64,000 bases of DNA from Pseudomonas shahriarae (lineage in GTDB: Bacteria; Pseudomonadota; Gammaproteobacteria; Pseudomonadales; Pseudomonadaceae), in the NCBI RefSeq assembly GCF_014268455.2, contig NZ_CP077085.1, positions 1,302,001 through 1,366,000 of the forward strand, in the 5' to 3' direction. The translations under genes and the position numbers were made by a program. Under the pieces are notes generated by a model. The model searched no databases. It was not told the DNA's origin and saw nothing but the letters and a program-made list of their open reading frames with translations. Shown piece after piece: positions 14,625 through 53,066 of the stretch; position 1 is the stretch's first letter; each line of letters begins with the position of its first letter.

Positions 14625-15600
14625 CTTTGCGGTGGGAGTGGGCTTGCCCGCGATGGTGGTGTATCAGTCAGCAGATGGGTTGGTTGATTTGGTTGTTGGG
14701 GATGTGTACATATCCGTTGCTGCGGTCACGGCCACTTAGGGTTCCGCCCTTACGGCGGCTCACTTTGGAAGAGCGCCAAAGTAAGCAAAGCGCTCTTGCC
14801 CCACCACTCGGTGCCTCGCCTAGGCTCGGCATGCCCGCAGTCAGGCATTGCTCCGTGGGCCCGCCGCGATCGGCCATCCCTGGCCGTGTCGCGGCTACCC
14901 CGGCATCCATGCCGGGGTGCCCACTGCGCAATACCTGCCTGCGGCCATCGTGGTTTAACGGGGCGCCTGAGATCAAGATCAAAAGCCAGATCAAAAGCAG
15001 AGCAAAAGCAGAGCAACAGCAGAGCAACAGCAGAGCCAGAGCGCGAAGCTGCATTCCCCCTGTGGGAGCTGGCTTGCCTGCGATGGCGGTGTATCAGTCG
15101 ATAAATGTATTGGCTGATACACCGCCATCGCAGGCAAGCCAGCTCCCACAGGTATATGCGTACATCTCGACGATCAGGTCGGCTGTCAGGCCGCCTCGCT
15201 TTGCTTGTGATTTTGATCTTAGGCGCCCCGTTAAACCACGCTGGCCGTCATCCGACATTGATTTGGGGGTAACCCGGCAGGACGCCGGGTTAGCCGCGCT
15301 GGGCCATGGATGGCCCATCGCGGCGGCCCCCCAAATCAATGTCGGATGACGGGCACACCGAGCCTAGGCGAGGTGCCGAGTGGTGGGGCAAGAGCCCTTT
15401 TGGTTACTTTTGGGGCTCTTTTCCAAAAGTGACCCGCTGTAAGAGCGGAACCAATAGCCGCCGTTACCGAAGCAACGGATATGTACACATACCCAGAAGA
15501 GAGTGTGTAGATACCTATGCCGCGATGGGGGAGCATCAGGCAGCCCATCAGTTGACTGATACACCACCATCGCAGGCAAGCCCGCCCCCACAGTGAGAGT
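14625..15600. repeat. Nested inverted-repeat region, no gene
   Basis: About 1 kb without a credible gene. An outer REP at about 14630-14665 faces another at about 15548-15592. Inside, a repeat of roughly 350 bp at about 14695-15045 has an inverted, diverged copy at about 15150-15500. They share, on opposite strands, blocks such as 'gtgtacatatccgttgct', 'tcttgccccaccactcgg' and 'cctcgcctaggctcgg', and each ends with 'tggtttaacggggcgcct'. A perfect REP palindrome lies at the centre (15060-15151). The family recurs at the left edge of the window. Confidence 0.8.
15060..15151. repeat. REPIN with perfect 38-nt arms
   Basis: The 38-nt arms at 15060-15097 and 15114-15151 are exactly complementary and separated by 16 nt. 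Each begins ctgtgggagctggcttgcc when read inward. This is a REP doublet that forms a long hairpin. Confidence 0.85.
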
Positions 15601-41463: not shown

Positions 41464-43146
41464 TTGAAAGAGTTCACTAGTCCATTCTCTAGCATTCCAC
41501 TAGGTCTTTCTCCTGAGCGACATTTCTCAGAAGCTTTGACAAGATGGAATTACTTCCCGAATCAGAAAGATTCAGCCAGCGAACTGCCTCCTTGTTTTAC
41601 AACAAGGCGTTTTACGCCAGAAATCGCCGAGGAGCTCTCAAAACTTCCTATTCAGGATGCTCGAAGACAGCACTGGTTCGATCTTGTTGAATACCGCGTA
41701 ACTAGATACAATAATATCTCCCGAACTCTAGCTCTATTACACCCACTTTCTTATGCAAGATTGCATGCGAGAATTATGGCCAGCTACGAGGAAATAGCGG
41801 GATTGACGTCCAGCAACCAAAGCGCCATTAAAATAGAAGAGCATATTGATGGACGAATCATCATCATGAACTATGAAAGTCATGATGATCGCACCAGTGC
41901 CGCTCTTGAAGGAACTTTTGGGAAACGATTTCGCGCCCACACAGATATTTCTAACTGCTTTGGCTCCGTTTATACGCACTCCCTGGAATGGGCCATACAA
42001 GGATACGAAGAAGCAAAGAATAATCTTTTTGCAAAACCGAAACATTGGAGCAGTCTTCTAGACGCTGCATTCAGGAACACAAAAAGAAACGAAACCTCTG
42101 GCCTTCCTATTGGGCCAGCAGCCTCCAATATAGCCGTAGAGATAATTTTGTGTCGAATTGACAAGGTGCTTGAAGGGCATAATTTTATCTTTACACGATA
42201 TATAGATGACTACACAGCATACTGCGAAACCCATGACGAAGCACAAAATTTCATCCGATTACTGGGGCAAGAGCTCGCCAGCTATAGACTATCCCTAAAC
42301 TTAAATAAAACCACCATTAAAGAGCTGCCCGAACCCTTACAAGACCCATGGACCTCTTTGCTTAACAATGCTCTACCGAAGCGTACAGATAGCGAAGGAA
42401 TACTTACACTGAGCACTAGCGAGGCAATCAACTTTCTTGACTTTGCCGTCCACCTTAACAAAGAAACTCCAGATGGCAGCGTGCTCAGATATGCTATCGG
42501 CGCTATAGCTTCTCGAGGAACTAGTGACGCCGCGATTGCAATTTTTAACTATACTTTAAATCTTGCATGGCACTTCCCAGCCTTACTTCCACTACTTGAA
42601 AAAATTGATGCTCGCTCAGATGCATACGATGTAGATGCAACACATGACAAACTTAACAAGATCATTAAAATAAATGCCTTGCATAGACGCTCGGACGGAA
42701 TGTGTTGGGCGCTTTATTATTTGAAGCAGTTAAATCGCGAGCCTGGCGAAGATGAAATCAAGGAGGTGATCAAATCAAAGGACTGCGCAGCGATTACCAT
42801 GCTATGCAAATTCAACAACTCTATCGCTCTCGCCAAAGATTATGCACTTAGAGTTATCGAAAACGCAACCCTTTATGAACTAGATCAAAATTGGCTATTG
42901 CTTTACGAACTATTCTTACATAATCACATTAACAACCCCTACCAAACTGAAAGCACATTCGATGTCTTAAAAAAATACGATGTATCCTTTTTTTATCCTG
43001 CTGACAGAACAAGTCACGCAGAACAATTCTGCCACGTCCTTTCAAACCCGTTCCAAATTCCCGGTCAAACGGTGCCTTTCAATCAGTGGATGCAAAGACG
43101 TGTAGCACCACTACCTCCTCCTAAACCTCCATCTCTTTTTGGATGA
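41464..43146 (+). CDS. Defence-type reverse transcriptase (Abi/DRT-like)
   Basis: A 560-residue protein starting at TTG 41464, directly after a strong ribosome site (aaggaggt, 4 nt). The RT core is intact: first catalytic aspartate in HTDISNCFGSVYTHSLEWA (D161), GLPIGPAASNIAVE (213-226) and the YIDD box (246-249 in FTRYIDDYTAYC). The THS segment after the first motif is typical of class 1 unknown-group/Abi reverse transcriptases, not of retrons or group II introns, and no maturase domain is seen. Residues about 360-540 form helical repeats. These proteins are anti-phage. I cannot assign a DRT number. AT-rich. The HNH gene follows by 189 nt. Confidence 0.88.
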   Translation: MKEFTSPFSSIPLGLSPERHFSEALTRWNYFPNQKDSASELPPCFTTRRFTPEIAEELSKLPIQDARRQHWFDLVEYRVTRYNNISRTLALLHPLSYARLHARIMASYEEIAGLTSSNQSAIKIEEHIDGRIIIMNYESHDDRTSAALEGTFGKRFRAHTDISNCFGSVYTHSLEWAIQGYEEAKNNLFAKPKHWSSLLDAAFRNTKRNETSGLPIGPAASNIAVEIILCRIDKVLEGHNFIFTRYIDDYTAYCETHDEAQNFIRLLGQELASYRLSLNLNKTTIKELPEPLQDPWTSLLNNALPKRTDSEGILTLSTSEAINFLDFAVHLNKETPDGSVLRYAIGAIASRGTSDAAIAIFNYTLNLAWHFPALLPLLEKIDARSDAYDVDATHDKLNKIIKINALHRRSDGMCWALYYLKQLNREPGEDEIKEVIKSKDCAAITMLCKFNNSIALAKDYALRVIENATLYELDQNWLLLYELFLHNHINNPYQTESTFDVLKKYDVSFFYPADRTSHAEQFCHVLSNPFQIPGQTVPFNQWMQRRVAPLPPPKPPSLFG

Positions 43147-43335: not shown

Positions 43336-44352
43336 ATGCGCATGCAAAATCAGGGATATTTTAAGTTGATTGAATTCGCGAAAAATTACAGGCCATCCAA
43401 TATCATCATATTAAGAAAAAGGCACTTTGTTGGAGAGGTCGGACAGTGCCGGTACTGTGGGGGGCTGGAACCAGAAGTGAAGTTCAGCAAAGTGGCGCAT
43501 TCTTTGCCTGAGCTTATAGGGAATAAGCTGCTTTTCTCTAGAGATGAATGTAATACGTGCAACGAATACTTTGATAAGCATTTAGAAAATCATCTCGCTA
43601 ATTTTCTGGGGATTTCAAGGACTACTGCTAGAGTCGATAGTAAAAAAGGTACGCCAAAGTTTAAATCCAACTCTGGCGAGCGCGTGGAAATGATCGGGAA
43701 TAGCCTAGTCATTCTAGAAACTCAGGACTCTAACTTGACTGCGCTTGACGAGGGGGCAGGGTTGCTCACTATAAATACAGAAACCAAACCATACATTCCC
43801 GAGCAGGTATATAAGTGTTTTGTGAAAATGGCCCTCTCCATAATGCCTGAAGCAGAATTGAAGGGATACAAGCAATGTATCGAATGGATACGACTCAATA
43901 AGAGGCCGGCAAAATTTAATTCAAGCGCTTTAAAAATAAGTAGAACTTTTGTGCCGGGACACAGGCCATTTCCGGCAATATGGATCAAGCTGTTCAAGAG
44001 AACAGGGGATAAGAAGACATACCCACACATGATTTGTAATATTGCTTTTTATAATTTTATATTTAATTTCATAGTACCTTTTGGTTCAAAAGATAAAATT
44101 GTTGATTGGGGGAACTCAAAATTGTTGACCTTTCCTTTTATTGAAGGGATGTTACCAAGGCAAAAAGGTCGGTCGCAAACGGAGGATCTAGACCTAACTG
44201 GAAAATTAGCAAAGAGGAATCAAGATAAAGCCTATATGCAAACAACGCAAAAATGGACATCCCCTCCTCTCGAGGAGATACCAGTAGAAATTCTTAATAG
44301 AATTAAAGAGCTAGGCTTGGAGTTTGCTCCAGAACCACCAGTCAACGACTGA
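43336..44352 (+). CDS. HNH_5-type endonuclease
   Basis: A 338-residue protein with an N-terminal HNH domain of the HNH_5 type: CRYCGG (residues 38-43), AHSLPELIGNK with His55, and DECNTCNEYFDKHLEN (72-76 CNTCN). The two CxxC pairs would bind a structural zinc. The rest, about 250 residues, is unrecognised and basic. Same strand as the reverse transcriptase and the same AT-rich composition, so the two may form one system; alternatively it is an independent restriction gene. The ATG at 43336 has only a weak ribosome site. Confidence 0.8.
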   Translation: MRMQNQGYFKLIEFAKNYRPSNIIILRKRHFVGEVGQCRYCGGLEPEVKFSKVAHSLPELIGNKLLFSRDECNTCNEYFDKHLENHLANFLGISRTTARVDSKKGTPKFKSNSGERVEMIGNSLVILETQDSNLTALDEGAGLLTINTETKPYIPEQVYKCFVKMALSIMPEAELKGYKQCIEWIRLNKRPAKFNSSALKISRTFVPGHRPFPAIWIKLFKRTGDKKTYPHMICNIAFYNFIFNFIVPFGSKDKIVDWGNSKLLTFPFIEGMLPRQKGRSQTEDLDLTGKLAKRNQDKAYMQTTQKWTSPPLEEIPVEILNRIKELGLEFAPEPPVND

Positions 44353-44843: not shown

Positions 44844-45686
44844 TTAGGCCGCCAACAGGTCAAGCAGGCTGTGTTGGTGTGATCGTTCTGCAAGTTCTCG
44901 GAAGGTCCAGCTTCCGAAGCTTTCACCTTGCTCAGGGATGTCCAGATTCAGCAGCGCAACCGGATCACGATTAATCAGTTTGCGGGCAGCCCACAACTTG
45001 CCACCGGTCTCCAGTAGTGCTTTTGCGGCCTCGTTCCATTGCTCTTCCAGCACAGTGTTTGCCAGATGAGCCGCTTGGTTTTCGATCTTGGCGCGTTCTT
45101 TTTGTGCCTCTGTGATGTGCTGATCAATCGTCACGAGCTCCTGCTCCAGCGCCGTGATGAGCAACTGTTGGCGGCGGTGATGCTCAACCGCCGCCGTAAG
45201 GTTTTTTGCTGCCTTTTGAGCTTCGGCGTTAGCGGCTTTCTCGCCTTCCACATCGCCCCAGGCGACAGCCTGCGCATAAGCGGTGGCTGCGTCCGTTTCA
45301 GCTTGTCGAGCCTTTGCCATGTCTTCCTGATCGCTCTGGCGGACTTGCTGCAACCTGGTCTCGATGCTGCTTCGCTTTTCGTTAAGCTCCATCTCGTCGG
45401 CTTTCCAGTTCGCAATGCCGCTCAGGTAACCCGCAGCCAAGCTCTCACGGTTCGCCAGAGCCTCGAGGCGATTGATTTTTTGATTCAGGCGATAGATCTC
45501 ATGATCTCGTGAGTCGATGCGTCTTTTGTGATCGTTGATTTCATCTTGCACTGCCCGTTGACGGCCCTGCTGGATAACCTCCGGGTTTTCCAGCGCTTCT
45601 TCGAACGGCGCCAGGTCGAGCCGAATGCTCTCCATTTCTAGGGTCAGTTCGTCGCGGCGGTCTTTCAGTTCTTGGATAGTGTTCAT
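44844..45686 (-). CDS. Coiled-coil protein of the element core
   Basis: A 280-residue protein, mostly one long coiled coil (residues 1-215, such as EIYRLNQKINRLEALANRES), with a short globular end (SFGSWTFRELAERSHQHSLLDLL). No known motif. It lies downstream of the DUF927 gene on the same strand, about 95 nt away. It could accompany the replication protein. Function unknown. Confidence 0.65.
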   Translation of the reverse strand: MNTIQELKDRRDELTLEMESIRLDLAPFEEALENPEVIQQGRQRAVQDEINDHKRRIDSRDHEIYRLNQKINRLEALANRESLAAGYLSGIANWKADEMELNEKRSSIETRLQQVRQSDQEDMAKARQAETDAATAYAQAVAWGDVEGEKAANAEAQKAAKNLTAAVEHHRRQQLLITALEQELVTIDQHITEAQKERAKIENQAAHLANTVLEEQWNEAAKALLETGGKLWAARKLINRDPVALLNLDIPEQGESFGSWTFRELAERSHQHSLLDLLAA

Positions 45687-45781: not shown

Positions 45782-48670
45782 TCAGGCGGCCTTGGCCTCG
45801 CTTTCATCCGTTCCTGGAACCGTCTTCACCACGTAGCAGCGTTGAGGTCCTAACCCTGGCAGGCGAATCAAGCTGTAAGCCTTTCCGTCGCTTCCCGGTT
45901 CCAGCACGCCTCGTTGCAGCAACTCCTTGTTCACTGCACTGATGTTCATGCCCTTGAAAATTTCGGCCCTCCAGGCTTCCGGCAGTACGTAGTAGGTGTT
46001 GGTGGTGTGCAGTGCATCGCCCATGCCGTGTTCCATCGTCTTGCGAAAGCCCAGTCGATCAATCGTGCGTGGGCCGTGCTCATCGATCTTGGCGGCGGCA
46101 GATTCCCAGCGGGTAAAGCGGCTTTCTCCGAACCGTTCGATGACCTGGTGTAAACGCGCCAAGATCGCATCGCCCTCAAAGTTACCGGCGCCGCCGCGTT
46201 CGGCCAGCCATGCATGCAGGCACACCCGTGCTGCGGTCGTGGCCGTGCCATCAGGCCAACCGGTGACGCCGAAGGCGGTGGCCAACTCTCCGGCCGCTGC
46301 TGCGAGGCCAAAGCGAAGAGCTGCACGTTGGGCTTGACCACTGGCCGAGGCGGGTAGGTTTTGGGTGATGAACTGCTCCACCGTGCGGCGAATGATCACC
46401 GTCCATCTGAGCATTTCGCCAGGCGCGCACAGTGCATGCAGGAAGGCGGTGAGGGGTGTGCCGTAGTATTTGGATACACGGGCCTTGAGCGCATCGGAGA
46501 GGGCGGCGGCGTCTTCAAAACCGTTCAGCACATCGAACATGCCGAGCCCTTTGCTTGCATCCGCTGGCACAGCCAGCATGCGAACTTCCATACCGGCTTT
46601 CAGCTCCTTGTTGGCATCTGCCATGTGCTGCGCCAACGTCTTCTCGCCGGTCGAGAGAAACAGCAGGCGCCACTCCTGCACCTGTCGGCCCGCTTGTCCT
46701 CGATCATTCGCCCGGGCTTTACCTGTGCCGTTACCGAGCATGTAAACCGTCTCGCCAATAATGCGTGGGTCACACATGCCAATTTCATCCAGCACCAGGA
46801 GGCCGTCTGAATGGGCGGCTGCGATGGACTCCAGGGCGTTATCTGTCGATCGCCATGAACGCACCAGACGTGGCCCGCCATAAACCGAGGCGGCGACTTG
46901 TAGGTGAGTGGTCTTGCCACCGGAACTGTCGCCGTACAGGTGGAAGCCGCCTGACTCATGCCCCAGCAGGTTCAGCAGAGGCCCTGCAAAGGCCACAGAG
47001 ACGACAAACGCCAAGCGATGGTTACCAACGCACAGCGCGCCGATTTGCTGCTGCCACTGCTCCAGAGAGCCCGCCTCGCTGATCGGTGGCAACTGCGCAC
47101 CGGCCTCATAAAAATGCAGGTGTTCGGCGTGCGAGCCGATCTGTTGTTCGGGCAGAAGGAAGGCGTTGCCGTGCCAGCCGAGACGCGTCACCAAGCGGGC
47201 ACGCTGGGCGCTGTCGAAGCCGCCGAGGTAGCTCTGCAAGTCATTACGTGCGTTACGTCCCGAGCGGCTTCCGGCAAGGCGTAGGCCCATGTCTACCAGC
47301 GGTCCGAGGACGTCCTTGCCGAAGTCGCCGGTCATGGTCCTGGCCGGGATATTCCAGCGCTTTTTGGCGCCGTCCGGGTCGTCGAACTCGACCAATAAAC
47401 CCCAGTTGTGGCCCTTGTCGTCGCGAGTGCGAGCGATGATTTCGAGAGGCGAACACACGGGACGCGCCTCACCATCATCGCCGGAATAAAAGACCCCTTC
47501 AGGCGTCAGGCGAAAGCCGCCCGGTAAAAGGTCGTTCTTAGATTTGGCAGGACGTTTTGCAGGTGTCTTAGCCTTCGTTTCTTGGGGCTCAGTGGGCTCC
47601 GCGACAGTGCCGAAAAGCTTACCGTCGCGCACCAGCTCGGCGACGTGGCCTGCGGTCCAGCCTTTGGCTAATGCGTCTGCAGCATCGTCGCCGTCAGCCC
47701 ATTTTCCACCTTTGACGAGTGTCGGCTTGCCGCCTTTGCTGCTGGGCTTGAGCGTGAACACGTCGAGCGCAATTCGTTGTACCGAAGCGGCGCCCAGCTC
47801 AATCAACTTGAGCTCGATGGCGTCCATGCACCTCTTGCCGCTGGCATCGTTATCCGGCCACAGCACCACGGTGCGCCCTTTGAGCGGCGTCAGATCGGCC
47901 TTGTGCCAGGAGTTCGACCCGTTCGGCCAGCAGGTGGCTACGTGGTCGGGCATGAGTTCAGCCGCGGCGTCAGCGGCCTTTTCGCCTTCACACAACACCA
48001 CAGGCGCGTCGGCGCGCTTTGCCAGCTCATCCAGGCGCAGCAATGGCCGAGGCTCCGGCAATCCTTGCCAGCGCCATTGTGTGGTTTGCCCATCGGAGCG
48101 CTTGCACCAGGTCAGCGGTGCAAAGACCTTTCGTGGTTTGCCGTCTTCATCGGGGCCCAAGTCGAAGCGATACAGCGCCATGACCGGCTGGCCCTGAGCG
48201 TCGCGGTAGATCCACACCTTGGACGGAACACCATGTTGCCGGTGTTTGGCTGGGCACTTGTTCATGGCCTCGGCCGGGATTGGCTGAATTGCGATCCACT
48301 CCGGCGTTGCGCTCTTGGCCGGTGCGCTTTTGGTGGTCGCAGAGCCGGCGGAAACACTCAGCAGATCTGCCAGTTTTTTGCAGGCATCAACGTCGGTGCC
48401 GCCGTCGATGTAGCGCACCAGATCGATCATGTCGCCGCCCTTATCGCCAGTGGCAAAATCTGCCCAGGTGCCTTTGCTCAAATTGACCTTGAGCGAGCCA
48501 GCGCGCTTGTCTGTACGCGTCGGATTGGGTGCTGTGTATTCCTTGCCGCCGTCTACGCGTTTGCCGTTCGGCAGCCAGTGAGTAAGGACGCGGTCGATGT
48601 TCTTTAGGGCAGAGCTTTTTACGTCGGCAAAGCTGGGACGTTTTGAGGTATTGCCGGTGCGCTGAGTCAT
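45782..48670 (-). CDS. Replication protein: TOPRIM primase-like plus DUF927 helicase
   Basis: A 962-residue protein. The N-terminal 120 residues (NGKRVDGGKEYTAPNPTRTDK, WADFATGDKGGDMIDLVRYI) are typical of plasmid/phage primase leaders. A TOPRIM domain follows near residues 220-300 (VVLCEGEKAADAAAELM, VLWPDNDASGKRCMDAI). The DUF927 ATPase has Walker A GDSSGGKTT near residue 580 and Walker B LLVLDEIGM. It should prime and unwind the element's DNA, probably at the iterons. The ATG overlaps the stop of the DUF3077 gene by ATGA, making it the last of a coupled chain of four genes. Confidence 0.88.
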   Translation of the reverse strand: MTQRTGNTSKRPSFADVKSSALKNIDRVLTHWLPNGKRVDGGKEYTAPNPTRTDKRAGSLKVNLSKGTWADFATGDKGGDMIDLVRYIDGGTDVDACKKLADLLSVSAGSATTKSAPAKSATPEWIAIQPIPAEAMNKCPAKHRQHGVPSKVWIYRDAQGQPVMALYRFDLGPDEDGKPRKVFAPLTWCKRSDGQTTQWRWQGLPEPRPLLRLDELAKRADAPVVLCEGEKAADAAAELMPDHVATCWPNGSNSWHKADLTPLKGRTVVLWPDNDASGKRCMDAIELKLIELGAASVQRIALDVFTLKPSSKGGKPTLVKGGKWADGDDAADALAKGWTAGHVAELVRDGKLFGTVAEPTEPQETKAKTPAKRPAKSKNDLLPGGFRLTPEGVFYSGDDGEARPVCSPLEIIARTRDDKGHNWGLLVEFDDPDGAKKRWNIPARTMTGDFGKDVLGPLVDMGLRLAGSRSGRNARNDLQSYLGGFDSAQRARLVTRLGWHGNAFLLPEQQIGSHAEHLHFYEAGAQLPPISEAGSLEQWQQQIGALCVGNHRLAFVVSVAFAGPLLNLLGHESGGFHLYGDSSGGKTTHLQVAASVYGGPRLVRSWRSTDNALESIAAAHSDGLLVLDEIGMCDPRIIGETVYMLGNGTGKARANDRGQAGRQVQEWRLLFLSTGEKTLAQHMADANKELKAGMEVRMLAVPADASKGLGMFDVLNGFEDAAALSDALKARVSKYYGTPLTAFLHALCAPGEMLRWTVIIRRTVEQFITQNLPASASGQAQRAALRFGLAAAAGELATAFGVTGWPDGTATTAARVCLHAWLAERGGAGNFEGDAILARLHQVIERFGESRFTRWESAAAKIDEHGPRTIDRLGFRKTMEHGMGDALHTTNTYYVLPEAWRAEIFKGMNISAVNKELLQRGVLEPGSDGKAYSLIRLPGLGPQRCYVVKTVPGTDESEAKAA

Positions 48671-48939
48671 GGCGTTGTCCTCGTTGCATACAGCGCATCG
48701 TTCACGTCATCAATCAGCGCTTTTGCCATCTCGCCCAGGTAGAACGCTGGCCAACTGAACCGCTCACCTTCGTTACTCATGGCGGCGTCGAGGGTCAGTT
48801 GATTGGCGTAGTACTGAAACAGCGATATCGCTTCAAGCGCATCCTCGATTGGCACGCCTGCATTGACCCGGAACAGTTTCTGATTGCTGCTGTTAGCGCA
48901 GGAAAATTCGGTACGCCCGAGAGTGTTGGCAGTGTTCAC
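48667..48939 (-). CDS. DUF3077 family protein
   Basis: A 90-residue protein with the DUF3077 signature as I know it from Pseudomonas elements: LFRVNAGVPIEDALEAISLFQYYANQLTLDA. Function unknown. Both ends are ATGA overlaps, with the 94-residue gene upstream and the DUF927 gene downstream, so its translation is tied to theirs. Confidence 0.8.
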   Translation of the reverse strand: MNTANTLGRTEFSCANSSNQKLFRVNAGVPIEDALEAISLFQYYANQLTLDAAMSNEGERFSWPAFYLGEMAKALIDDVNDALYATRTTP

Positions 48940-49220
48940 AGGGCACCGCCTTTCTGGCCCATTGGCACAGAGGAGGCATCACCGTACATGGTGAGCGTTT
49001 TGATTAGGCCCAAGGTGCCGCGCACGTCCCAAATAACGGACGACAGCACGCGGTTGGAAAGTAGGGGTTTATCGCCGTCTAAGTGATCTTCCAAAAGCAT
49101 GAGAACTGAATCGGCACGGTCGAGCGCGCAGGTGATGGCGTCGATAGGTAGGCCGGCTTCCGCGTCTGGGCTGACGCAGAGCAGATCCTCGGGTAATGAA
49201 AAGCCTGGGAGCATGCTCAT
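48936..49220 (-). CDS. Hypothetical protein of the coupled operon
   Basis: A 94-residue protein starting at ATG 49220 (MSMLPGFSLPEDLLCVSPDA). The frame is open back to 49703, but that extension passes through the C4 RNA and another gene's coding sequence. The short form is preferred because its ATG overlaps the stop of the 52-residue gene by ATGA. Not recognised beyond a likely helical fold (IDAITCALDRADSVLMLLED). Confidence 0.75.
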   Translation of the reverse strand: MSMLPGFSLPEDLLCVSPDAEAGLPIDAITCALDRADSVLMLLEDHLDGDKPLLSNRVLSSVIWDVRGTLGLIKTLTMYGDASSVPMGQKGGAL

Positions 49221-49375
49221 TGGGCACCCCCTGCGGCTTCTAGGGCTCGCGCCTTGGACATATGGGCGTTGTAACGGGAGAGGCGTGTAGCGAGGCTGGA
49301 GTTGGCGTGTAAAGCGGCGAGAGCCATTGCTCGATGAGCGGCGGCGCGAATTCCGAACGGATTGAGGGCGTGCAT
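49217..49375 (-). CDS. 52-residue leader gene controlled by C4 RNA
   Basis: A small gene, MHALNPFGIRAAAHRAMALA to ALEAAGGAQ, with AGGAG 9 nt before its ATG. It heads the chain of ATGA-coupled genes that leads to the replication protein. Its ribosome site is complementary to the loop of the C4 RNA just upstream. It may act mainly as a translated leader. I do not recognise the peptide; it is alanine-rich and probably helical. Confidence 0.75.
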   Translation of the reverse strand: MHALNPFGIRAAAHRAMALAALHANSSLATRLSRYNAHMSKARALEAAGGAQ

Positions 49376-49384
49376 GGGGCGAAA

Positions 49385-49408
49385 CTCCTATTGTTGAGGA
49401 GCTGCCAC
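49385..49408 (-). promoter_or_regulatory. C4 RNA target in the operon leader
   Basis: Two 9-nt segments, GTGGCAGCT (49408-49400) and ACAATAGGA (49394-49386, overlapping the AGGAG ribosome site), are exactly complementary to the 3' flank and hairpin loop of the C4 RNA. Pairing would block initiation at 49375. Confidence 0.8.
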
Positions 49409-49430
49409 ACTTCGTCGCCAAACGAATTAG

Positions 49431-49510
49431 GGTGGCAGCTGTGCGCAGGTTGGCGAACCGGGACAATAGGAACCCGGCAGACCCGAAGGTCTCCCACGCA
49501 CAGCCGCCAT
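49431..49510 (-). ncRNA. C4-type antisense RNA
   Basis: On the minus strand a three-way junction is formed. The outer stem CGCACAGC... is 49438-49445 with 49497-49504 (8 bp). One hairpin, AGACC-TTCG-GGTCT (49479-49492), has a stable UUCG tetraloop. Another, CCGGG/CCCGG (49458-49477), has the loop TTCCTATTGT. The loop and the 3' segment AGCTGCCAC are complementary to the following leader. This matches the C4 antisense RNA of phages P1 and P7, which represses translation of a downstream gene from the same transcript. Confidence 0.85.
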
Positions 49511-49527
49511 AACGCGTGAATGCGGGC

Positions 49528-49566
49528 ACAAAAAAAGCGCCTGCAATCGTAATGGGGGCGCCTGTG
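49528..49566 (-). terminator. Possible terminator upstream of the C4 RNA
   Basis: On the minus strand, GGCGCC and GGCGCT can pair before a run of seven T. It lies between the open frame at 49570-49703 and the C4 RNA and could set the ratio of C4 RNA to full transcript, or end an upstream transcript. Confidence 0.5.
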
Positions 49567-49750
49567 CGCCTATTGTAGATCGGGTCGCCAAACCCGGTCG
49601 CTGAATTTGCAGCGACAGCCAGAGAGTAACGCCCGTTTTTTGAAAGTGCAACTGTGTGGATCGCTTGCGGATTTTTTCGATGCGGCATAAATTGACCAGG
49701 CATGTAGATTCACCTCAACGCCTCCGGTTGCCGCCGGGGGCGTTTTCGTT

Positions 49751-50056
49751 TCAGGCATGGACTTCCCAGCGCAGGGAGACAAAGGGCAGCAGGTCGCCTT
49801 CGAGGCAGGCGCGTGCATCCTCGTAGGCGTCGATTTGTTGGCCTTCGTCGACGATGATTGCTCGCGGGGCTTGGCAGGGAACTGATAGTGCGCACCAGAT
49901 GCCATCTGCCCATCGCATTACCATTACGTCCCGGTTAAGGCGTTTTTGCTCTGTGCGGTGGCGCTCGAAACGCTGCATACCTCGTGATGAGAACCCGACT
50001 TTTCTGAGTACAGAAAAGGGCTGCAAGATGGCCCTGTTGGCGATACGATTTTTCAT
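49751..50056 (-). CDS. Hypothetical protein downstream of AlpA
   Basis: A 101-residue protein starting at ATG 50056 (MKNRIANRAILQPFSVLRKV), which overlaps the AlpA stop by ATGA. Basic N-terminal half, then WADGIWCALSVPCQAPRAIIVD. Not recognised. Translational coupling to AlpA suggests a joint role in early control of the element. Confidence 0.7.
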   Translation of the reverse strand: MKNRIANRAILQPFSVLRKVGFSSRGMQRFERHRTEQKRLNRDVMVMRWADGIWCALSVPCQAPRAIIVDEGQQIDAYEDARACLEGDLLPFVSLRWEVHA

Positions 50057-50307
50057 GCTGCCACCTGATCGCGGGCAGCGATGCGTGCCCGTGTCCATGC
50101 CTGAACTTCCCCCAATACCCACGCAACCGGAGCACTTCGTGCATTGCTGTTACTCAGCTTTACCGGTAACGGGAATCCGCTTTCAGGTTGACGCATCAGC
50201 TTGTAGATAGTCGGGCGTGCGAGCCCTACGATTGAAATGACCTCGGGCATGCGGATGAGGGTCATGGAGGGATCATGCGAGGGAATTGCTTTTAATACGG
50301 TAGTCAT
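50053..50307 (-). CDS. AlpA-family excisionase/regulator
   Basis: An 84-residue DNA-binding protein of the AlpA/MerR-like winged-helix group: LIRMPEVISIVGLARPTIYKLM, then FPLPVKLS and AVAWVLGEVQAWTRARIAAR are typical. In P4-like elements AlpA/Vis proteins regulate the integrase and act in excision. A start 14 codons later (MTLIRMPEV) is also possible. Confidence 0.88.
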   Translation of the reverse strand: MTTVLKAIPSHDPSMTLIRMPEVISIVGLARPTIYKLMRQPESGFPLPVKLSNSNARSAPVAWVLGEVQAWTRARIAARDQVAA

Positions 50308-51574: not shown

Positions 51575-52816
51575 TCACACGGCCTTCCCAAATTGACCTT
51601 GCACTACATTTCCGGCCACTAGGGAATCAAGATGATCGGCGTACCATTGCATCATGTTTACACGTTGCTCAAAGTATTGTGCCTTGTTGTATACCCCCGA
51701 GATGCCTTCCTCTTTGTGAGCCAACTGCGCTTCAACGTGTTCCTTCGGCCAGCCATGCTCTCTAAGTAACGTGCTCGCGGTGTGTCGAGTGCCGTGGCCT
51801 ACGAGACGACCTTTGTACCCGATGGTTGCGAAGACTTTGTTGATTGTGTTTTCGCTGATGGTTGGGTTCTTCGCTCCCACACCGGGGAAAAGCCAACGAC
51901 TCCGCCCCGTTAAGCTGTGCAGATCCCTCAAAGCTGTCACTGCTTGATGGGGAAGGGGGCATACAAAATCCCGGCGCATCTTCATCTTGGCAGCAGGCAT
52001 CGTCCAAATTGCCTTCTCAAGGTCGAACTCTTTCCATTCAGCCAAGCGAACCATGCCTGGTCGGGAAGCCGTCCAGATACAAAGCCAAGCGGCGGTGCGT
52101 GCCGTCAGTCTGCTCGGAGTGTTTTGGAGTGCTTGGAGGAATTCAGCCAGTTCAGGCTCCAGCAAATGTGGATGCTGCTGAGTCTTGGGTGCCTGGGCGG
52201 CAATGTCACGAAGGCGGCTGCCCGGATCGTTTTCGGTGAGTCCTAAACCAATGGCTCGACCGAAGATTTGGTTGATCCAGGTGCGGCACTTTTCCGCCAC
52301 GTTGTGAGCGTCTCTAGTTTCGAGGGATGCCTGGAGATCTGCACAGTCGGTGCGGGTGATTTCGTCGAGGGGTTTATCTCCCAATGCAGGGAGTATGTCC
52401 TTGTCGAGGTAGGTCCGGATTTTGTGAAGGGTAGAGGGTGCGAGGCCCTTTTCTTCTTTTGCTTTGAGCCAAGCTTCAGCAGCAGTTCGAAACGTTCGGG
52501 CCTTGGCCGCATCGATTGCAGCTTTGGCGGATCGCTTCTGCTCAAGGGGGTCGGCGCCGCTACTCACTACTTTGCGTAGATCGGCAGCTTTGTCTCTTGC
52601 CAGTGCACCACTGACCTCTGGGTAACCCCCGAGCCCCATCCAAGCCCAATTGCCTGCCGGACGTTTGTAGCGGAGCTGCCAGGATTTACCACCATCAGGT
52701 TTGACCCTGAAGTAGAGGCCGTTTCCGTCTAGCTCCCGGTATTCCTTTGACTCCGGCTCCAGCCCTGCAAGCGTCGTGTCGGCGAGAGGGCGGCGCTTGA
52801 TATCTGCGCGCTTCAT
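51575..52816 (-). CDS. P4-type tyrosine integrase
   Basis: A 413-residue site-specific recombinase with the DUF4102 arm-binding domain (GNGLYFRVKPDGGKSWQLRY, LGGYPEVSGALARDKA), a core-binding domain, and a catalytic domain. Catalytic residues are seen: Arg in WTASRPGMVRLAEW, the HGTRH box (GHGTRHTASTLLREHG) and the tyrosine region VYNKAQYFEQR. It integrates at the tRNA-Leu 3' end 165 nt away. Transcribed away from the tRNA, as usual for this type. Confidence 0.95.
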   Translation of the reverse strand: MKRADIKRRPLADTTLAGLEPESKEYRELDGNGLYFRVKPDGGKSWQLRYKRPAGNWAWMGLGGYPEVSGALARDKAADLRKVVSSGADPLEQKRSAKAAIDAAKARTFRTAAEAWLKAKEEKGLAPSTLHKIRTYLDKDILPALGDKPLDEITRTDCADLQASLETRDAHNVAEKCRTWINQIFGRAIGLGLTENDPGSRLRDIAAQAPKTQQHPHLLEPELAEFLQALQNTPSRLTARTAAWLCIWTASRPGMVRLAEWKEFDLEKAIWTMPAAKMKMRRDFVCPLPHQAVTALRDLHSLTGRSRWLFPGVGAKNPTISENTINKVFATIGYKGRLVGHGTRHTASTLLREHGWPKEHVEAQLAHKEEGISGVYNKAQYFEQRVNMMQWYADHLDSLVAGNVVQGQFGKAV

Positions 52817-52981: not shown

Positions 52982-53000
52982 TGGTGCCCCGAGGGAGACT
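52982..53000. other. attR within tRNA-Leu
   Basis: The 19 nt tggtgccccgagggagact, the 3' end of tRNA-Leu, match attL at 36251-36268 except for one C. Confidence 0.85.
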
Positions 53001-53066
53001 CGAACTCCCACTCCTTTCGAAAACGGATTTTGAATCCGCCGCGTCTACCAATTCCGCCATCAGGGC
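52982..53066 (-). tRNA. tRNA-Leu(CAA)
   Basis: An 85-nt class II tRNA with encoded CCA. Acceptor GCCCTGA pairs with TCGGGGC, the D arm contains GGTAGACGC, the anticodon loop TTCAAAA reads CAA, a long variable arm follows, and the T arm is GGGAGTTCGAGTCTCCC. The attachment site of the element. Confidence 0.97.

Follow-up and report, generated by a model that had tools for sequence, protein, structure and literature searches.

A self-targeting C4 antisense RNA unit as a probable lock on a four-gene operon of a Pseudomonas integrative element

In a window of the Pseudomonas shahriarae genome (the term is used here for the whole stretch of 64,000 nucleotides that was analysed) we found a C4 antisense RNA with complementary targets on both sides of it. 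This is probably a self-targeting C4 unit within an integrative element, acting as a repressive lock on an operon of four genes. Elsewhere in the genus, many DUF6124/DUF3077 genes that stand alone are preceded by units with the same layout but other loops.

The C4 RNA, its targets and the operon downstream

A preliminary description of this DNA had reported a C4 antisense RNA on the minus strand, and this observation is confirmed. The covariance search proposed there matched Rfam model RF01695 at 49514-49428 with 87.7 bits (E 5.6e-16, cut-off 45), the match covering the whole model from position 1 to 87. The genome search gave zero C4 matches in 14 named control genomes. In the calculated fold (-49.1 kcal/mol) the RNA contains the three-way junction and the UUCG hairpin that had been described. 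Two further Rfam matches, a c4-a1b1 element and an isrK-like leader, had been overlooked. The features of the leader region, in the order of transcription, are as follows:

49577 to 49629, minus strand: c4-a1b1 leader element (Rfam RF03163, 62.8 bits, cut-off 46.7)
49530 to 49616, minus strand: isrK-like leader RNA (Rfam RF01394, 58.1 bits, cut-off 50)
49585 to 49592, minus strand: upstream junction target b1 (pattern search; within both the c4-a1b1 and the isrK match)
49569 to 49576, minus strand: upstream loop target a1 (pattern search; within the isrK match only)
49428 to 49514, minus strand: C4 antisense RNA (RF01695 over its full length; 99.4 bits with our own model R1)
49463 to 49470, minus strand: C4 hairpin loop core CCTATTGT, complementary to ACAATAGG
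49450 to 49456, minus strand: C4 junction TCGCCAA, complementary to TTGGCGA
49415 to 49422, minus strand: downstream junction target b2 (pattern search)
49387 to 49394, minus strand: downstream loop target a2, overlapping the ribosome site (pattern search)
49385 to 49389, minus strand: AGGAG ribosome site

The loop is complementary to the leader of the 52-residue gene over exactly the 9 nt that had been claimed (ACAATAGGA), and its target does lie on the AGGAG ribosome site, with an overlap at 49389-49385. A second segment of 9 nt had also been claimed; there the exact match, formed by the junction, is 7 nt long (TTGGCGA). The upstream sites a1 and b1 are a second copy of both targets, missed in the preliminary description, and stand ahead of a terminator-like stem that is predicted, together with a T run at 49536-49530, at the 3′ end of the isrK-like leader. 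A simple terminator scan, limited to loops of 3-8, did not pick up this stem, and a simple scan for consensus sigma-70 promoters found none at 49350-49900. We searched the 6.05 Mb genome with a joint motif consisting of the 7-nt junction target, a gap of 0-30 nt and the 8-nt loop target. It occurs at three sites, namely the two targets and the complement of the C4 itself; the backwards motif, used as control, occurs at none.

The genes of the operon and of the surrounding element are listed below, with their occurrence among 78 related loci:

49217 to 49375, minus strand: first gene, 52 residues (72/78 loci, median identity 90%)
48936 to 49220, minus strand: 94-residue gene, ATGA overlap (68/78 loci)
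48667 to 48939, minus strand: DUF3077 gene, 90 residues, GTGA overlap (PF11275, E 4.7e-25; 66/78 loci)
45782 to 48670, minus strand: primase/helicase-like DUF927 protein, 962 residues, ATGA overlap (PF06048, E 5.8e-83)
44844 to 45686, minus strand: 280-residue gene, frequent in the element, downstream of DUF927 (65/78 loci)
50053 to 50307, minus strand: AlpA-like regulator (PF05930, E 2.7e-12; 72/78 loci)
51575 to 52816, minus strand: tyrosine integrase (PF00589, E 2.6e-20; 67/78 loci, median identity 46%)
52982 to 53066, minus strand: tRNA-Leu(caa), possible attachment gene

The chain of four genes holds as it had been described, except that the middle one of its three supposed ATGA overlaps is GTGA, and Pfam agrees with the DUF3077 and DUF927 identities given earlier. 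The DUF927 protein also matches phrog_1139, DNA primase (E 1.8e-80). Judged by these family names (DUF927, PHROG DNA primase), the operon may serve replication. Pfam returned no match for the 52- and 94-residue genes and no antirepressor family in the operon. A Q-type family is likewise absent from the upstream reading frames, that is, the 123-residue, AlpA and 312-residue ones (Pfam and PHROG) and the integrase (Pfam only). For the DUF3077 protein a structure with short strands and two long helices was predicted (mean pLDDT 84.4). The model has no match at E ≤0.001 in the PDB and viral structure libraries, the nearest solved sequence is found only at E 0.92, and phages hold no relative at E 0.01. 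The relatives of the DUF927 protein in phages and plasmids are all below 60% identity.

The window contains no direct repeat (14 nt or longer) of the tRNA-Leu end, and no 19-nt match with up to three mismatches was found either, which is why the left end of the element was not placed. Beyond the 280-residue gene, a reverse transcriptase at 41464-43146 (plus strand) matches PADLOC Drt4 (E 8.3e-223), and a 338-residue protein of phrog_26663, of unknown function, adjoins it at 43336-44352 (plus strand). Both genes were found in none of the 78 related loci within their 6 kb flanks. For this reason we read Drt4 as probable defence cargo of the window copy, and its neighbour looks like cargo too. 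Elsewhere in the window two TwoAYGGAY RNAs score above the Rfam cut-off, at 15236-15361 (plus strand) and 14922-14857 (minus strand), about 300 nt apart.

Coordinated variation in related elements and a proposed mechanism

The 78 loci, each with a relative of the DUF927 protein, come from public genomes, all titled Pseudomonas except one Azotobacter. With a C4 model built for this study, a C4 on the same strand was detected upstream of DUF927 in 72 of them; it is missing from L139 and L199, and the four further exceptions are partial loci. Integrase, AlpA, C4 and the primase-like gene co-occur across the loci. Within the genus, 60 of 296 genomes carry the DUF927 protein at E ≤1e-100, some in pieces (two candidates scored per genome).

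We then analysed sequence variation in 73 elements, the 72 loci with a C4 and the window. Among them the loop takes 18 different strings and the junction 11, with 23 combinations of the two. We compared the six bases that follow CC in the loop with the six that precede GG(AG). Over the 16 distinct combinations 93 of 96 pairs are Watson-Crick pairs, as against a mean of 44.0 (sd 5.2, maximum 65) in 10,000 shuffles. Positions 1-4 of the loop pair in all 73 elements, position 5 in 67 (6 mispaired) and position 6 in 58 (15 mispaired). The complement of the junction lies within the first 25 nt after the C4 in 72 of 73 elements. On the upstream side, a run of at least 6 nt complementary to the element's own loop is present in 68 of 73, compared with 36 of 665 for other loops, and the junction target is present in 72. 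The chain of overlapping genes extends to the large gene in 72 elements as well. As far as sequences can tell, there is strong evidence that the pairing of C4 loop and target is maintained by selection. Occlusion of the ribosome site and coupling of the operon, both put forward in the preliminary description, are backed by the coordinated changes of loop and target and by the overlaps conserved across the 73 elements.

We propose a single transcript in which b1-a1 would be followed by the terminator-like stem, then by the C4 RNA and b2-a2, and finally by the four genes of the operon. RNAs of the C4 class are processed by RNase P to about 77 nt. The processed C4 could bind in cis and in trans; it would block translation of the 52-residue gene and, via coupling, also that of DUF3077 and DUF927. 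Pairing with the upstream targets would favour termination ahead of the C4, and in this way the RNA would limit its own synthesis. The expected outcome would be low replication while the element is integrated; an incoming element that shares its loop and junction would be silenced. As had been suggested, the C4 might then serve as an immunity switch for replication. Elements residing in the same genome differ in loop and junction in seven of seven pairs, a result that is only suggestive of immunity. It has a chance probability of 0.064, above 0.05, and we make no claim of heteroimmunity from it. Points that weigh against the lock are the lack of a promoter match, loci L139 and L199 with their missing C4, the mispairs at loop positions 5 and 6, and the weaker among the self-match tests given below.

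The main action could instead be transcription termination at the isrK-like terminator through a1/b1 pairing, with the pairing at the ribosome site being secondary. The c4-a1b1 and isrK matches do lie upstream of the C4, most elements retain the upstream targets, and the layout of P4 as told in the accessible text of PMC4825925 points the same way. On the other hand, the four loop bases that pair in all 73 elements do so just before the GG of the ribosome site, and when units are tested against their own leaders (see below) the loop matches less well at its upstream target. Furthermore, in 50 of 51 units of two genomes the distance from the C4 to the chosen start codon is 45-59 nt (script range 38-89 nt), a spacing that pure termination would not need. 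We consider termination as the main action rather unlikely and favour the mechanism set out above.

Stand-alone C4 units in the genus

The window's own genome holds six C4 RNAs. Of the other five, four precede a DUF6124 gene (three by Pfam, the one at L005 by a DUF6124 match at that place) and one, L006, precedes DUF3077. At four of the five, the neighbouring genes scanned belong to the lipocalin, amidohydrolase, LacI, GST, sigma-70 and AraC families. A C4 above the cut-off is found in 274 of 298 genomes of the genus (14 candidates scored per genome, counts being lower bounds). Of the 274 genomes in a sample of the class, 18 (our own included) have a C4 above the cut-off, with at least one to six each (15 candidates scored, again lower bounds). 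The genus of one such C4-bearing class genome, G569, has 0-2 C4 per genome in 10 genomes. Ten single-contig genomes, hand-chosen among those that reached 14 in the genus scan and so biased to high copy number, hold 14, 15, 17, 24, 27, 29, 30, 42, 43 and 45 C4 at E ≤0.001. The two richest are G111 (45 units) and G097 (43 units, one of them under the cut-off). DUF6124 counts range from 6 to 39 in eleven genomes with at least six C4 and are 0 in four genomes with no or one C4 in the genus scan. A single DUF6124 query found 0 of 72,556 plasmid records and 1 of 50,697 phage records.

In the 51 units whose start codons are given above (six from our own genome and 45 from G111), the gene after the C4 is DUF6124 in 37, DUF3077 in 4 and Bro-N in 2; one protein, such as that at L006, can match DUF6124 and DUF3077 together. 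The script assigning reading frames was rough: it missed a DUF3077 gene just downstream at L069 and gave none at L006, where the frame was supplied by hand. Some individual loci may be mentioned. At L006 (1081-1374) the DUF3077 gene is apparently preceded by a short reading frame resembling the 52-residue gene. The Bro-N genes follow units L037 and L090 of G111, in an antirepressor-like arrangement as in P1. L108, from the 1.5 Mb class genome G558, has four C4 in 1.4 kb (548-633, 903-988, 1501-1586 and 1855-1940); three of them have a common loop and a different junction, and each matches its own leader.

In order to compare units with their own and with other leaders we measured complementary runs and pairing energies. 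In G111 the junction run averages 7.04 nt in the own leader against 3.93 in others, and the loop run 7.29 against 4.50, sums that none of 10,000 permutations reached. Wider leader windows had been used at first (7.49 against 5.59 for the loop and 7.16 against 4.71 for the junction), and the present ones were chosen with that result in view. By summed energy the own leader is strictly best in 31 of 45 units. By run length alone this holds for only 13 of 45 (junction) and 21 of 45 (loop), because 25 junction strings are spread over the 45 units; an exact 7-nt complement of the junction occurs in the first 22 nt of 34. The loop discriminates less well at the upstream target (6.71 against 5.51; z 2.0 by energy, 238 of 10,000 permutations). 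G097 behaves alike, with loop runs of 6.98 against 4.29 and junction runs of 6.74 against 4.00 (sums of 300 and 290, permutation maxima 213 and 201). Among the six units of our own genome the own leader is strictly best in six for the junction and in four for the loop, and the loop test on the upstream side gives a weak signal (z 2.4 from run length and 1.5 from energy). We also examined 27 of 34 model matches from other genera, dropping six duplicates of overlapping loci and one near a contig end. Loop runs were 8.26 against 4.72 and junction runs 7.11 against 3.76, and the self-match therefore extends beyond this genus. A common rule, by which the C4 RNA represses the gene directly downstream, is likely.

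Within a genome all loops are distinct (45 in G111, 43 in G097), which is expected anyway with such a variety of loops. For the comparison with protein identity we used the 85 of 88 G111 and G097 units that have a reading frame (L210, L259 and L269 were dropped; the units of our own genome lie outside the set). Among pairs with identity of at least 0.9 the loop is shared in 0 of 25 within a genome and in 10 of 44 between genomes (Fisher 0.011, the pairs not being independent); the matching pairs between genomes are likely orthologues. Of 21 likely orthologous pairs, hand-picked by protein identity and in part with poor identity in the flanks, 12 differ in the loop by an edit distance of at least 5, and in the other 9 the loop is the same or similar (0 to 3). 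No consistent rule governed the omission of three further high-identity pairs with equal loops (L072/L222, L085/L224 and L067/L063); their inclusion gives 12 of 24 changed. Of 24 comparisons within the changed pairs, 22 favour the own target over that of the other strain and 2 are ties.

Could the stand-alone C4-DUF6124 units be decaying prophage remnants, with functionless loops that merely drift? C4 is known mainly from phages (in the accessible text of PMC2864571 and PMC12197685), and units L210 and L259 of G097 look broken when read by eye. However, the genes of the 21 pairs are under constraint (pooled pN/pS 0.11), and the C4 stems show no difference in 6 of the 9 unswitched pairs. The scarcity of DUF6124 in plasmid and phage records and the ordinary genes flanking four own-genome loci speak against remnants as well, and we regard this explanation as very improbable.

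At one locus, eight orthologues (of 39 genomes with a match) were aligned and four loop types were assigned by eye. One type occurs in G111 and in G055, and both genomes at 80-81% identity have it with a single base altered. G055 is one of five genomes at 91-94% gene identity, and the other four carry three other types. Such scattering of loop types points to recombinational exchange of the leader block. We had considered three separate islands of change and rejected them: in this alignment the stretch between a1 and C4 varies too, which makes block exchange the better reading. In two within-genome pairs, L063/L213 and L067/L076, genes are 97% identical and C4 stems only 66-68%; here the gene parts look homogenised and the leaders kept different.

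Loop diversity might then be a mere by-product of leader-block recombination, with no selection for separate specificities. This is a serious possibility, if on balance a doubtful one. In switched pairs the stem and the stretch from a1 to C4 differ as well, the loop types are scattered over orthologues, and the variety of loops by itself makes distinct loops within one genome expected. Loop sharing within as against between genomes, with the dependence of pairs noted above, and the differences in all seven co-resident element pairs argue against it. In the reading in which it pays to be unlike other units or strains, a genome has many separate antisense locks (14-45 units in the ten fully scored high-copy genomes), each with a loop and targets of its own, guarding small conserved DUF6124/DUF3077 proteins as RNA-silenced effectors; strains swap leader blocks and keep the proteins unchanged. 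We offer it tentatively, as an unlikely but attractive idea. If it were true, effectors would be freed on loss or titration of the C4, for example by an invader with look-alike targets.

Comparison with known systems

C4 in Pseudomonadales was predicted already in 2010, according to the accessible text of PMC5320573. We did not find stand-alone, many-copy, self-matched units with exchanged specificity described in the literature searched. Stand-alone multi-copy C4 units in Pseudomonas are unreported in the titles and abstract openings covered, a set outside which subscription papers and supplements lie; DUF6124 is named in no paper of the literature searched and DUF3077 in one.

The window unit is probably a lock of the P1/P4 type, carried by an integrative element. 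P4 carries an AlpA-type regulator and a primase-helicase. As in the window, the CI RNA of P4 has targets on both sides, a primase-like gene downstream, and AlpA and integrase on the same element; the seqA/CI/seqC layout is described in the accessible part of PMC4825925. The C4 of P1/P7, whose mode of action and processing are described in the accessible part of PMC5320573 (further background in the accessible parts of PMC4603805 and PMC9630843), is likewise a three-way-junction RNA with loop and junction complementary at a downstream ribosome site. It controls an antirepressor gene, whereas the operon of the window leads to a DUF927 primase-like gene. The analogy to P1/P7 drawn in the preliminary description stands for ribosome-site targeting and is incomplete otherwise: the upstream target copy and the isrK-like leader fit the P4 layout, and therefore termination may matter as much as translation.

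The isrK-orf45-anrP region of Gifsy-1 resembles the window in its isrK leader and in a small first gene that overlaps the next. Translational coupling in this case and the model of IsrK activation are both described in the accessible part of PMC4825925. In contrast to the window, where Pfam found neither family among the neighbours scanned, Gifsy-1 has Q-like and antirepressor genes.

The unit of the window extends C4 locks to an integrative replicon beyond the P1 and P4 cases, and the naturally separate loop/target pairs are a possible source of independent RNA switches. The Group 1 sRNAs of Acinetobacter baumannii resemble the Pseudomonas units in the many C4-type RNAs per genome and the variable loop. 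In the accessible text of PMC5320573 this family has 21 members with targets left open, whereas the Pseudomonas units each have a matched target at the next gene. The downstream-gene rule predicts targets for these multi-copy Acinetobacter RNAs, a prediction that is directly testable.
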